Shown here: in pieces, positions 22,783 through 27,790 of the stretch
Numbering within the stretch: position 1 is the stretch's first letter
Layout: the number at the start of each line of letters is the position of its first letter
DNA from: Acidobacteriota bacterium
GTDB lineage: Bacteria > Acidobacteriota > Blastocatellia > UBA7656
DNA: 64,000 nt
Assembly (NCBI GenBank): GCA_038040445.1
Contig: JBBPIG010000003.1
Span: forward strand, 248,001-312,000
Direction of reading: 5' to 3'
Notes under the pieces: model-generated
Told to the model about the DNA's origin: nothing
Database searches by the model: none
The model's input: only the letters and a program-made list of their open reading frames with translations
Position numbers and translations under genes: made by a program

Positions 22783-23226
22783 ATGTCGAAGACCCGCAAA
22801 CAAGGTTTGAGTCATTACGTCGACCGGGTGATGAAGGAGAAGCACCTTTCGCGGCGCGATGTGAAGCTGAGATCCGGCGGAGAGATAACCGATAGCTACG
22901 TGAGCGGAATCATAAGCGGCACTGCAAAGAACCTGAGCGTCGAGAAGCTCAAGGCTTTGGCGCGCGGGCTCCGAGTGCGCGAGCTGGAGCTGATTCGCGT
23001 GGCGTTCGGACTATCGGACGAACGCGAAGCTCATCGAAGCGTGGACCTGTCGCACAACCTTGTACTTGTGGACATTACAAAGAAAACGGTCATTAGCAAC
23101 GACGTGGCCGAAATCGTTCAAGAGGTGGTCAAGTTGTCACCAGCCGACCGCGCTATCGTGCTTCAGTATATCAAGAGATTGGGGAAGCCGGAGCGGAGGG
23201 CGCAGCGAAAGGGCCGGTCAGTCTAG
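22783..23226 (+). CDS. XRE-like helix-turn-helix regulator
   Basis: A 147-residue protein. The N-terminal 70 residues form an XRE-type DNA-binding domain (SHYVDRVMKEKHLSRRDVKL, then ITDSYVSGIISG as the recognition part). The C-terminal part ends with LSPADRAIVLQYIKRLGK, a pattern seen in many single-domain regulators of this class. An AGGAG site precedes the ATG. It stands alone, convergent with the BMC-T gene, so a target cannot be read from context except its own promoter dyad. Confidence 0.8.
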   Translation: MSKTRKQGLSHYVDRVMKEKHLSRRDVKLRSGGEITDSYVSGIISGTAKNLSVEKLKALARGLRVRELELIRVAFGLSDEREAHRSVDLSHNLVLVDITKKTVISNDVAEIVQEVVKLSPADRAIVLQYIKRLGKPERRAQRKGRSV

Positions 23227-23361: not shown

Positions 23362-23931
23362 CTACGCGGTCAAGATTTTCCGCAGCGCCTCGTGGGCGTA
23401 GGGAATCACAACCTCGGCGATCAACATCCCTTCTTTCTTGATCGAGGCCACTCCCGCAGCGACCGCTGTCCGCACGGCCCCCACTTCACCGGTCAAAACC
23501 ACAAGGCCTTTCCCGCCGGGTTGGTTCCGAGCCTCGATCAGCTTGATGTTCGCCGACTTCACCGCGGCGTCTCCCGCGTAAATCGCCGAGGCCACCTCTT
23601 TCGTCTCGATGATGCCGATGGCCTCGATGTGCTCGACCTTCACACGGCCTCTTATCGCGGGGAAGAGCTCGCTGTGAACGTTCGGAATAATGAAGTGGTC
23701 CAGGACCGTTCCGGCGGCGGTTTGAAGACCGGCTCGCAGCGACGATTCGACATCGGCCACGTTCCCGCCGATCATTATCAGGTACTTTCCGCGCGGGATT
23801 ATCGTGGTCATCAGAAGCTCAACGTCAGCCATCTTCATCATCGCATCGGTGGCTTGGATGCCCTTGGCAATCGAGCCAGTCTCGAGGAAGCCGATACAAT
23901 GATGCGGGTCAGTCAGGTCGCTTGCGCTCAT
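23362..23931 (-). CDS. BMC-T microcompartment shell protein (two BMC domains)
   Basis: A 189-residue protein made of two tandem BMC domains: residues about 11-90 (CIGFLETGSIAKGIQATDAM, then PRGKYLIMIGG) and about 103-187 (AIGIIETKEVASAIYAGDAA, then QPGGKGLVVLTGEV). Family members form pseudohexameric trimers in polyhedral protein shells around metabolic enzymes. The start is ATG at 23931 with an AGGAGAA site; the open frame extends further upstream only as a shadow of the next gene. No BMC-H hexamer, BMC-P pentamer or core enzyme is adjacent. One cysteine (C12) is present, and it is not in the PduT iron-sulfur position. It lies 14 bases downstream of the M14-type gene, so the two should share a transcript. 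Confidence 0.93.
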   Translation of the reverse strand: MSASDLTDPHHCIGFLETGSIAKGIQATDAMMKMADVELLMTTIIPRGKYLIMIGGNVADVESSLRAGLQTAAGTVLDHFIIPNVHSELFPAIRGRVKVEHIEAIGIIETKEVASAIYAGDAAVKSANIKLIEARNQPGGKGLVVLTGEVGAVRTAVAAGVASIKKEGMLIAEVVIPYAHEALRKILTA

Positions 23932-23945
23932 CGATTCTTCTCCTG

Positions 23946-25007
23946 TTACTTGTTCTGGCCGGCGACAACTCCGACGTTGGCGATTGTTGCGCCTTTGGTC
24001 ATCGACGGCACGGCGCAGATGTATAGGACAACTCCGGCCGCCGGCGCGCGGGCTTCGAAAATCGTCTTGCCGACATAGTCGGTGACGTAGCCGACCTTCA
24101 TCCCTTGCTCGACATAGGTACCGCGCTTCACCAGCGGGTAGAAAATCCCGGTCTGCTCGCTCGCAATCGTCGCGATTTTTTCGATCCACACAGGACGCTC
24201 AATCGGAGCGGGCACGCCCGGAAGCATCTTCAGGTAGCGCATCACGCTCAAGCATCCGTCGACCAGCGCGGCAAGGTCCTCCGGCTCAACCGTCCCGGCG
24301 TATCCGGCTTCAACGGTGATCGAAGGTTTACCTCGAGTGGTTGCGGTGTTCTCGAGATACCTCGAAGCATTCGGGTCCTTCGGCCGATCGGTTGAAATAA
24401 TGATGTGATCTAGCCCGAACGCAAGAACCATTTCGCGCGAGATTCGATCCTGATTCTCGTTGCCGGTCCTGGTCCAGTAGCTGTACGGCCGCAGACTCTC
24501 GTCGAGATCGCCGCCGTGCAGATCGATCAAATGATCGCACTGCTCGACTACCTGTTTAGTGATCAGGTAGGAAGCGCGATCCGTCTGCGTGCCGTCCATC
24601 TTGCCGGGATACATCCGGTTCATGCTCTTGCCGTCAACCGGATTGACGTGCGGGACTTTCTGCTCGAAGGATGGGATGTTGACCAGGGGCACGATGATTA
24701 CGGTGCCGGATATCTCGGCGGCATCGAGCAGGCCGATCAGTTTCTCGAGCGCGATGATCGACGCGTATTCGGTCCCGTGCGCGCCCGAGACGAGCGCAAT
24801 CACTGGTCCGGGTTTAGCTCCGTGAACAACGGCGACTGGGATGCTGGTAGCCGCGTCAACTCCGCGCGGAACTTCGATGAGGCCGGTAGCTTTCTGACCG
24901 CGCGTGGCAGTCGCGGTGCCGACACTGAACGTCGTTCGATCCTGAGCGGCGGCGACGCCGCTCAGGGTGAGGATGGCTAAGACTGAAGCGATGATTGCGC
25001 GTTGCAT
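23946..25007 (-). CDS. Exported succinylglutamate desuccinylase/aspartoacylase-family metallo-hydrolase
   Basis: A 353-residue protein with a signal peptide (about 1-21, cut near GVAAAQ). The M14-type zinc site is visible as H77 and E80 in SGAHGTEY and H164 in LIDLHGGD; RMYPGKMDG matches the substrate-binding arginine region, and a catalytic glutamate is likely in ITVEAGYAG. A C-terminal beta-barrel domain (about 270-350) is typical of the family. It should cleave an N-acyl amino acid or similar amide in the periplasm. It is upstream of and close to the BMC-T gene, which is odd because BMC shells are cytoplasmic. Confidence 0.88.
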   Translation of the reverse strand: MQRAIIASVLAILTLSGVAAAQDRTTFSVGTATATRGQKATGLIEVPRGVDAATSIPVAVVHGAKPGPVIALVSGAHGTEYASIIALEKLIGLLDAAEISGTVIIVPLVNIPSFEQKVPHVNPVDGKSMNRMYPGKMDGTQTDRASYLITKQVVEQCDHLIDLHGGDLDESLRPYSYWTRTGNENQDRISREMVLAFGLDHIIISTDRPKDPNASRYLENTATTRGKPSITVEAGYAGTVEPEDLAALVDGCLSVMRYLKMLPGVPAPIERPVWIEKIATIASEQTGIFYPLVKRGTYVEQGMKVGYVTDYVGKTIFEARAPAAGVVLYICAVPSMTKGATIANVGVVAGQNK

Positions 25008-25145
25008 ATTGAACCTCCAGATGCGAGCCGCTAAAAACCTAGTCGCGACTCAACCCCAAGGCGGCGAGAGTATCGCGAAATGAGGCTCATTGCAACGAAA
25101 CGAAGTGAGATTGTCAAAGCTCTTTGGAACTGCCTCAGGCAAGGT

Positions 25146-25314
25146 CTTATTTGGACTGCGCCGCCTTTTCGTCAACCAAGGAGTTGGTCAGGCAGTGGCG
25201 GCGCTTTGGCCCAGGGGGAGTGAGCAACCGCGTGTTGGCAGAGTGTTTGCCAAAAGCGCCGCCACTGCCTGAGACACTCCTTGGTTGACGAAGAGGCGGC
25301 GCAGTCCAAATAAG
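25146..25314. repeat. Very long inverted repeat in the 25008-25483 spacer
   Basis: Two arms of about 66 bases (25146-25212 and 25249-25314) are near-perfect reverse complements. They begin and end with CTTATTTGGACTGCGCCGCC and its complement, with a GC-rich loop of about 36 bases. It would fold into one of the most stable hairpins in the window. A short piece of the element (GCTGCCTGACATACT) trails at 25317. No ORF inside looks coding. The rest of the spacer has no supported feature. Confidence 0.85.
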
Positions 25315-25483
25315 CCGCTGCCTGACATACTCGATGATCAAAGGAACAGGCGGCCCAGTCCGAGCAAGCCAACAAGTAAGCCAACGCCATTGACATCACT
25401 CCACAGAACGAGTAGGTTCACGTCACAGTGACCGCGCCCTGGTGGTCAGGTCGCTAACTTTCGTCGCTGAGAGGGCCTGCTCT

Positions 25484-26071
25484 ATGGATAGCGAAGACAC
25501 TTCCCGGCGTTTGTTTCTGATCAAGTCGCTCACAGGGGTAAGCTCAGCGTGGCTCGCGTTGCGGCTTCCGGAGATCGTCGCCGCTCAGGAGCACGCTCAT
25601 CGCGCGATGCAGTCAGCAGCGCCGGTCAAGTTCGAATTTCTCTCCGCCGAACAAGCCGCCGAGGTGGAAGCCGTCGCTGCACAGATCATCCCGACTGATG
25701 ACTCACCCGGCGCTCGCGAAGCGCGCGTGATCTACTTCATCGACCGCGCGTTGACGACCTTCGACAAGGACAAACAGAGCCAATACGTCAAAGGTCTGAA
25801 AGAGCTTCAGTCGAAGCAGAAGAAGATGTTCAAGAACTCGGCGAAGTTTTCCGACCTGAACTCGGAACAACAAATCAAGGTGCTGAAAGCTTTCGAGAAG
25901 AATGAGTTCTTCGAGACGGTTCGCATGCACACGATAGTGGGCTTCTTCGCGGATCCGTCGTACGGCGGCAACTACGACAAGGTCGGCTGGAAACTGATTG
26001 GATTCAAAGACGACTTCTACTTCAAACCGCCGTTCGGTTACTACGATCGTGAGTACAAAGAAGCGCAGTGA
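25484..26071 (+). CDS. Gluconate 2-dehydrogenase subunit 3-family protein, Tat-exported
   Basis: A 195-residue protein from the ATG at 25484 with a twin-arginine signal (SRRLFLIKSLTGVSSAWLAL). The mature part has FEFLSAEQAAEVEAVAAQII, then DDSPGAREARVIYFIDRAL, and ends with a GGNYDKVGWKLIGF block, all standard for the small subunit-3 family. Such proteins escort or stabilise a flavin-containing GMC subunit during export. The next gene encodes that GMC enzyme, 60 bases downstream. A cytochrome c subunit, often the third partner, is absent. Confidence 0.87.
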   Translation: MDSEDTSRRLFLIKSLTGVSSAWLALRLPEIVAAQEHAHRAMQSAAPVKFEFLSAEQAAEVEAVAAQIIPTDDSPGAREARVIYFIDRALTTFDKDKQSQYVKGLKELQSKQKKMFKNSAKFSDLNSEQQIKVLKAFEKNEFFETVRMHTIVGFFADPSYGGNYDKVGWKLIGFKDDFYFKPPFGYYDREYKEAQ

Positions 26072-26131
26072 CCGGCGACGGGGAGACAGGGCGACGGCAC
26101 GAGTAAAGTTCCGTTTTCTGCCGACGTGATT

Positions 26132-27790
26132 ATGAGCGCGCAACAACCTAAGTTTGAAACGCAGACGCAGGTGGACTTCGTCGTTATCGGCGCGGGCGCG
26201 GCGGGCGGAATCATTGCCAAGGAGTTGTCCACCGCCGGATTTCAAGTCGTAGTTCTCGAGCAAGGGCCGTACTTGAAGGAGAAGGACTTCGATCACGACG
26301 AGATAAAACACTTTTGGCAGGCGGCGCTGATAAACGACTGGAAGAAGCAACCCAATAGTTTTCGCAAGACTCCGAAAGCGAAAGCCACGGTTCAACCGGC
26401 AGTCATGTACGGCCGAATGGTGGGCGGGGGCACGGCGCACTTCACGGCGAACTACTGGCGGTTTCACGAAATCGACTTCGTAGAGCGAAGCAAGCTTGGA
26501 ACGATCTCGGGCACGGGCTTCGATGATTGGCCGATTACTTACGCCGAGCTCGAGCCTTATTACACCAAAGCCGAGTGGGAACTCGGAATCTCGGGGCAGC
26601 CGGGGCCGTTCGACCCGCCGCGCTCGAAACCCTACCCGCTGCCGCCGCTGCCAATAAAGTCCGCGGGAGCGCTTCTGGCAAACGGCGCTCGCAAGCTGGG
26701 CTGGCACCCGCAACCCGCGCCAATGGCGATCCTCTCCCAGCCTTATCGCGGACGAAGCGCGTGTTCGCATTGCGGCTTCTGTGAGGGCTATGGCTGCGAG
26801 ATAAAAGCGAAGTCGAGCACGCTTGCGACAGTCATCCCCGAAGCGGAAAAGACCGGCCGTTGCGAGATCCGCTCGGGTAGCTACGTGCGCAAGATCGAGA
26901 CCGATAACGCGGGCCGCGTGACCGGCGTGATTTACTTCGATGAGAAGAAGACCGAGATTTTCCAGCGAGCCAAAGCTGTAGTGTTGTGCGCTAACGGAGC
27001 CGAGACGGCGAGGCTGCTTCTGATTTCCAAGTCGAATCTCTTTCCAAACGGCCTCGCCAATTCGAGTGGAGTTGTCGGCAAGTATCTGATGTTCAACGGA
27101 GGCGGCTTCGCGACTGGAGTCTTCGAGCACGAGCTTAATGAATTCAAAAGCGTGGCGGTGACGCGAATAATACACGACTTTTACGATTCGGACCCGAAGC
27201 GCGGGTTTTATGGCGGCGGCGGGCTCGATGCCCGATTCGATGTCTACCCGATCGGCTACGCGCTTGGAGCGTTGCCGCGCGAAACTCCGCGCTGGGGCGC
27301 GGATTATAAGAAGGCTCTCAAGCAGTATTACACGCGATCGATGTTCACATTCGGGCACACGACTTCGCTGCCGGTTGAACGCAATAGCATTTCGCTCGAT
27401 CCGGAGGCGAAAGACTCGTGGGGTCTGCCGGCGATGCGAGTGACGTACAAGGATCACCCCGACGATCTCAAGATCATGAAGTTCTTTTCAGACCGCGGCA
27501 TGGAGTTGCTCGACGCCGCCGGCGCGACGAAGAGGTGGGCGGGGCCCGTTGAGGAGTCGACCTTCGGGGTTCACCTGCTGGGGACTTGCCGAATGGGAAA
27601 TGATCCAAAGAGATCAGTGGTGAACAAGTATCACCGCGCTCACGATCTGGCGAATCTTTTCATCTGCGATGGGAGCAGCTTCGTGACATCGGGACGCGGT
27701 CAGCCTACGTGCACGATACAAGCGCTCGCGTATCGCGCTTCTGATCACATCATTCGAATGGCTAAGAATGGAGAGATTAAAAGCGCTTAA
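26132..27790 (+). CDS. GMC-family FAD oxidoreductase
   Basis: A 552-residue flavoprotein. The FAD-binding Rossmann motif is VVIGAGAAGGIIAKEL near residue 17; GRMVGGGTAHFTANYWR is the second GMC signature. A cysteine cluster follows in CSHCGFCEGYGC. The C-terminal VHLLGTCRMG and DGSSFVTSGRGQPTCTIQAL blocks hold the active-site region. It likely oxidises a sugar or polyol. It has no signal of its own and would be exported with its Tat-signalled partner. ATG at 26132 is preferred to the GTG two codons earlier. The long minus-strand ORF across it is a shadow. Confidence 0.9.
   Translation: MSAQQPKFETQTQVDFVVIGAGAAGGIIAKELSTAGFQVVVLEQGPYLKEKDFDHDEIKHFWQAALINDWKKQPNSFRKTPKAKATVQPAVMYGRMVGGGTAHFTANYWRFHEIDFVERSKLGTISGTGFDDWPITYAELEPYYTKAEWELGISGQPGPFDPPRSKPYPLPPLPIKSAGALLANGARKLGWHPQPAPMAILSQPYRGRSACSHCGFCEGYGCEIKAKSSTLATVIPEAEKTGRCEIRSGSYVRKIETDNAGRVTGVIYFDEKKTEIFQRAKAVVLCANGAETARLLLISKSNLFPNGLANSSGVVGKYLMFNGGGFATGVFEHELNEFKSVAVTRIIHDFYDSDPKRGFYGGGGLDARFDVYPIGYALGALPRETPRWGADYKKALKQYYTRSMFTFGHTTSLPVERNSISLDPEAKDSWGLPAMRVTYKDHPDDLKIMKFFSDRGMELLDAAGATKRWAGPVEESTFGVHLLGTCRMGNDPKRSVVNKYHRAHDLANLFICDGSSFVTSGRGQPTCTIQALAYRASDHIIRMAKNGEIKSA

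Follow-up and report, generated by a model that had tools for sequence, protein, structure and literature searches.

Organization of the locus

The window, by which we mean the whole stretch of 64,000 nucleotides analysed, carries on its reverse strand a BMC-T shell gene situated directly downstream of a gene for an AstE/AspA-type metallo-hydrolase (Table 1). PF00936 matches the shell protein twice, with an E-value of 8.1e-43 over the whole protein (Pfam; the query lacked the first four residues), and the gene has an ATG start codon with AGGAG eight bases ahead of it. The hydrolase matches PF24827 (AstE_AspA_cat) at 92.3 bits against a curated cut-off of 25 (Pfam), and its N-terminus is signal-peptide-like, with a basic n-region, a hydrophobic core and an Ala-rich end (by eye and by hydropathy), a build that is retained with differing residues in 7 further aligned orthologues. 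These data bear out the preliminary description of this DNA, in which a complete two-domain BMC-T was placed 14 bases downstream of a desuccinylase/aspartoacylase-family hydrolase with a signal peptide. The shell protein itself shows no signal peptide and therefore does not go out of the cytoplasm with the hydrolase.

Table 1. Coordinates of the BMC-T and hydrolase genes, their elements and their flanks
Feature	Positions	Strand	Remarks
HTH_3 DNA-binding protein (PF01381)	22783-23226	+	small; convergent with the BMC-T gene
BMC-T shell gene	23362-23931	-	189 aa; tandem non-permuted BMC domains, PduT-like fold, no pore cysteine
Second-domain loop codons, Asn-Gln-Pro-Gly-Gly-Lys, residues 136-141	23509-23526	-	cysteine-clade loop is two residues longer
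First-domain pore-loop codons, Pro-Arg-Gly-Lys, residues 46-49	23785-23796	-	PduT equivalent Cys-Pro-Gly-Lys
Intergenic gap with BMC-T ribosome-binding site	23932-23945	-	14 bases
AstE/AspA-type metallo-hydrolase, signal peptide predicted	23946-25007	-	353 aa; PF24827; upstream of BMC-T, same orientation
Inverted repeat	25135-25207 / 25253-25325		73-base arms, 90% complementary, 45-base spacer
Gluconate 2-dehydrogenase subunit 3-like protein and GMC oxidoreductase	25442-27790	+	divergent from the hydrolase gene

The motifs HGTE and DLHGGD, which we take to bind zinc in this family, are present in 8/8 aligned hydrolase orthologues, and together with the family match they constitute the likeness to AstE/AspA-type deacylases (DoeB, PDB 6twl; 3cdx). 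The window hydrolase differs from these in its predicted export, and it falls far under the DoeB cut-off (101.7 versus 402.7 bits). The inverted repeat, upstream of both the hydrolase gene and the divergent GMC oxidoreductase genes, looks from its sequence like a small non-autonomous mobile element.

Modelled as a single chain from an 11-row alignment (AlphaFold, pLDDT 90.9), the BMC-T has the predicted structure of a standard non-permuted BMC-T, and the top Foldseek matches in the PDB include 3nwg, 3n79 (PduT C38S) and 3pac (PduT) with TM-scores of 0.87-0.89. In the model the residues PRGK link strands 38-45 and 49-57, in what is by homology with PduT the putative pore loop. The top NCBIfam match is TIGR02526 (eut_PduT), far under its cut-off (104.6 versus 250.3 bits). 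We considered whether the gene might be a recent foreign acquisition or a paralogue of a BMC-H gene of the same genome. Base composition gives no support to the former, as GC (0.593) and GC3 (0.758) are near the values of the measured neighbours (0.55-0.62 and 0.68-0.73), and the latter is rejected by an identity of about 40% over one domain, compared with 67-73% over both domains to the BMC-T proteins of genomes G007 and G465 and of the Elusimicrobia locus L014.

Recurrence of the hydrolase and BMC-T pair

Two genes on the same strand, separated by a 14-base gap that holds the ribosome-binding site of the second, may be read as a functional operon. The exported hydrolase would then release a carboxylate or an amino compound outside the cytoplasm, and this product, once imported, would enter a compartment through the BMC-T. 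Within the class, of which 162 genomes were searched, the BMC-T query matches 7 genomes (E-value of 1e-22 or lower) and the hydrolase query 18 (E-value of 1e-40 or lower). In a sample of 396 genomes from the phylum, 5 match the BMC-T with E-values no higher than 1e-45. Apart from our own genome, only G009 and G013 in the class have both genes, the hydrolase there being 34% identical and on another contig. By tblastn, a hydrolase relative is found in 0/20 stretches around BMC-T relatives, and a BMC-T in 0/24 stretches around 17 other hydrolase genes, several of the stretches extending only 1-1.5 kb to each side. Hydrolase orthologues with 78-82% identity, some of them in same-family genomes, are present in G003, G005, G006, G019, G156, G157 and G160, which all lack the BMC-T, and the flanks are unlike those of the window in all 7 orthologue stretches read.

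In these searches the pair thus occurs in a single genome. We therefore reject it as a conserved module, and find no support for the view that the pairing is a functional unit fitting no known compartment type. In G156 and G157 the hydrolase orthologue is situated directly behind genes for a DUF485 protein and an SSF (sodium:solute) symporter (L085:5435-8564; L088:4335-7376), the latter presumably of the acetate-permease kind. This arrangement makes uptake of a product plausible and to that extent accommodates a functional operon, but it also suggests that the hydrolase has a scavenging role of its own. As the close relatives of the BMC-T have quite different neighbours (see below), we regard a functional operon as improbable, and the hydrolase looks like an incidental operon neighbour of the BMC-T.

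Shell genes elsewhere in the genome

On the contig that contains the window (C3), profile searches find PF00936 only at this BMC-T and PF03319 nowhere. The absence of BMC-H, BMC-P and core enzyme genes noted in the preliminary description is therefore correct for the window, but it does not hold for the genome. The genome-wide search with PF00936 and PF03319 that had been proposed there as a check locates two BMC-H genes (C9:64361 and C2:281356) and three BMC-P genes (C9:64754, C1:18909 and C1:19256). On C9 a class II aldolase gene (PF00596; match at L010:17416-18246, E-value 1.1e-46) comes first, then BMC-H and then BMC-P (Pfam). On C2 the BMC-H is followed by an aldehyde dehydrogenase (Aldedh, Pfam; stretch L012), and on C1 the two BMC-P genes adjoin. 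PduL (PF06130) is absent from the genome, and by eye no hydroxyacid dehydrogenase (pfam00389/02826) is recognised beside the shell genes of C9 and C1. One trait of the ACI type of microcompartment (see below) is an encapsulation peptide at the C-terminus of the aldolase; a helix-like tail is apparent on the aldolase of the present genome (G000), G004 and G008, as judged by eye only.

In its accessible part, the survey of Sutter 2021 (PMC8217296; a further microcompartment source, likewise accessible in part, is PMC4207490) describes an ACI type, exclusive to Acidobacteria, with a class II aldolase, a BMC-H, a BMC-P triplet, and an AldDh on a satellite. The present genome resembles this type in its class II aldolase with BMC-H and BMC-P, its aldehyde dehydrogenase with BMC-H on a satellite and its three BMC-P genes in total. 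Judging from this ACI-like set, the genome is probably that of a member of the Acidobacteriota. As far as that text allows a comparison, it differs in that the BMC-P triplet is divided over two loci (one on C9, two on C1), that no hydroxyacid dehydrogenase is noticed by eye beside the shell genes, and that there is a lone BMC-T in addition. The division of one and two BMC-P genes is also found in G002, G003 and G004 of the same family (only G004 being additionally read as sequence). The BMC-T itself is absent from G001 of the same genus and from G002-G006 of the same family, from which it follows that the compartment works without it.

Small proteins encoded right after BMC-P (L008:19548-19952; L100:11006-11524) both have a cysteine-bearing C-terminus ending in ...C..RGF, and the first of them has no Pfam match; from their sequences they may possibly represent a core protein of such compartments that has yet to be given a name.

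Satellite loci are distal shell genes in the accessible text of Sutter 2021 (PMC8217296), and they are recognised, in the corresponding parts of Axen 2014 and Sutter 2021, by having only PF00936 or only PF03319 in a genome with another locus that has BMC-H and BMC-P. Here the shell set on the window's contig is incomplete, with the BMC-T alone, and C9 has BMC-H and BMC-P beside the class II aldolase. Because the genome has this ACI-like set elsewhere, assignment of the BMC-T as a satellite shell gene is supported, as had been offered as one of two possibilities in the preliminary description. A full shell locus elsewhere and absence of the pair in relatives had been named there as arguing against a new role for the BMC-T; the pair is indeed absent from relatives and a shell set does exist, but the set is split over contigs and does not form one normal full locus.

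Two clades of BMC-T

The BMC-T proteins of the loci were taken by tblastn and reading frame, and those that could be aligned fall into two sets. Fourteen rows read C-[PS]-G-K in the first of the pore loops, while a cysteine-free set, comprising the window, G007, G465, G360 and the Elusimicrobia loci L014 and L015, has [P/A]-R-G-K, with a second loop that is two residues shorter except in L015. In the tree the two clades (6 versus 14 rows) are separated with support of 100/100. We excluded L025, of which 47 residues are matched, from alignment and tree, and G041, whose sequence breaks off with its contig ahead of the pore loop, from the tree; placement of G041 with the cysteine-free set is by its C-terminal half only. 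An aligned Calditrichaeota BMC-T gene (L020:10001-10510) has one in-frame stop codon, either a sequencing error or a pseudogene.

The two clades also differ in the company of PduS. In 14/14 cysteine loci PduS is found upstream on the same strand (about 1 kb away in L018, much closer in the others), compared with 0/7 loci of the cysteine-free clade, G041 included. Genome-wide, PduS is matched at E 7.9e-99 or better in 5/5 sampled cysteine-bearing genomes, whereas 5/5 sampled cysteine-free genomes give partial matches only, with best E-values from 3.5e-11 to 7.0e-5; the latter is that of our own genome, with 30% identity over about 100 aa. According to the accessible part of PMC6325248, the PduT cysteine, in a pore motif C-P/S/A-G-K/R/S-Y/F, is a ligand of a [4Fe-4S] cluster on the axis of the trimer, and PduS interacts with PduT. 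The window BMC-T shares with PduT, the [4Fe-4S] BMC-T of PDU and GRM compartments (3n79, 3pac), the same tandem fold (TM 0.87-0.88, 37-39% identity), but has a proline at the position of the pore cysteine, followed by an arginine (P46-R47-G-K versus C-P-G-K), and has no PduS partner in the locus or the genome. Without pore cysteine and PduS, it has either lost both or never had them.

Cysteine-free BMC-T tiles are already known, and the advance is in this respect a modest one: the accessible part of PMC6325248 mentions a BMC-T in which a pore serine was changed to cysteine, and the cysteine-free 5dih/5dii are among the structure matches of our model. Searches of the open-licence PMC literature turned up no paper describing a PduT clade without the cysteine or an acidobacterial BMC-T.

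Distribution of the cysteine-free clade

In the Elusimicrobia locus L015 the BMC-T has RpiB directly downstream and DeoC, AldDH, BMC-P and BMC-H around it, a gene set that is the signature of SPU (sugar phosphate utilisation) loci as given in the accessible text of PMC8217296. L014 has a BMC-P, and a reading frame resembling RpiB is recognised downstream by eye only. These SPU-type BMC-T proteins belong to the same clade as that of the window, with 61-68% identity and the same cysteine-free pore motif, but in L015 the gene is inside its locus, whereas in the window it is alone. In the sampled genomes outside Elusimicrobia the BMC-T of this clade is solitary and has a different neighbour each time. 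It is divergent from a transketolase in G465, behind a protein with an FGE-sulfatase domain in G007, and in G041 it converges with the gene for a DcuC carrier. In G360 it lies 8 bases behind an exported Amidohydro_3 protein, of a family unrelated to the window hydrolase, and this second adjacency to an exported hydrolase might be more than chance.

Such a patchy distribution, with other neighbours each time and a single gene without its original locus, could also be that of a relic, a functionless shell gene gained by horizontal transfer that has so far escaped decay. We consider this unlikely, although somewhat less so than a functional operon, because the reading frame is intact, the ribosome-binding site good and GC and GC3 neighbour-like, and because pore motif and length are retained in 6/6 full-length clade members from different families and two phyla. 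Moreover, other shell genes are always present where whole genomes were searched: in all five sampled genomes, the BMC-T of the close clade is accompanied by BMC-H and BMC-P genes (a single BMC-P in the 78%-complete G041). This last observation also bears on the suggestion, made in the preliminary description, of a lone shell trimer with another job, outside any microcompartment. Apart from the gene being encoded alone beside an exported enzyme there is nothing in favour of it; the shell-tile fold is retained and the protein has no visible signal peptide with which to follow the hydrolase, and we find it the least probable of the alternatives, with very little to recommend it.

A model for the BMC-T

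We propose, with a probability of about 0.72, that the BMC-T is an accessory trimeric tile of a dispersed, ACI-like catabolic compartment, that it has an arginine pore, and that the hydrolase is incidental to it. This builds on what is demonstrated, namely the tile fold (as given by the predicted model and the sequence), the shell set elsewhere, the non-recurrence of the pair, and the clade's loss of both PduT cysteine and PduS. In this model the gene would be expressed by read-through from the hydrolase promoter with no functional link, and its product would most likely join the ACI-like shell as a minor tile, the remainder of the compartment (class II aldolase, aldehyde dehydrogenase, two BMC-H and three BMC-P) being encoded on three other contigs. 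At the putative pore, one conserved arginine per subunit, three in all, would replace the [4Fe-4S] cluster. An arginine from each of three subunits would suit anions, so that the pore may admit anionic metabolites, for example sugar phosphates, and no longer electrons. Sugar phosphates are the best guess because the clade is linked with SPU loci and because the ACI-like set has an aldolase; the accessible text of PMC8217296 places the class II aldolase family also in compartments handling fuculose and rhamnulose phosphates. The BMC-T gene has probably spread horizontally as a single tile, its nearest named kin being the SPU-type loci of Elusimicrobia.

A more general and decidedly more tentative idea, which we would doubt sooner than accept, is that the cysteine-free clade consists of PduT-like tiles whose [4Fe-4S] pore has turned into an arginine conduit for phosphorylated sugars, and that it is an exchangeable single gene moving between SPU and ACI-like sets and working from any operon.

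The puzzling pairing with an exported hydrolase is thereby explained away, and 'solitary' shell genes evidently need a whole-genome check. A satellite shell gene is a known kind of gene, but the clade that lacks both the pore cysteine and PduS is a variant that merits mention. The match of pore cysteine and PduS, both in 14/14 loci and neither in the 6 full-length cysteine-free loci, amounts to a simple sequence rule that separates electron-relay tiles from metabolite-pore tiles, and the two clades are a natural pair for a comparison of pore selectivity.
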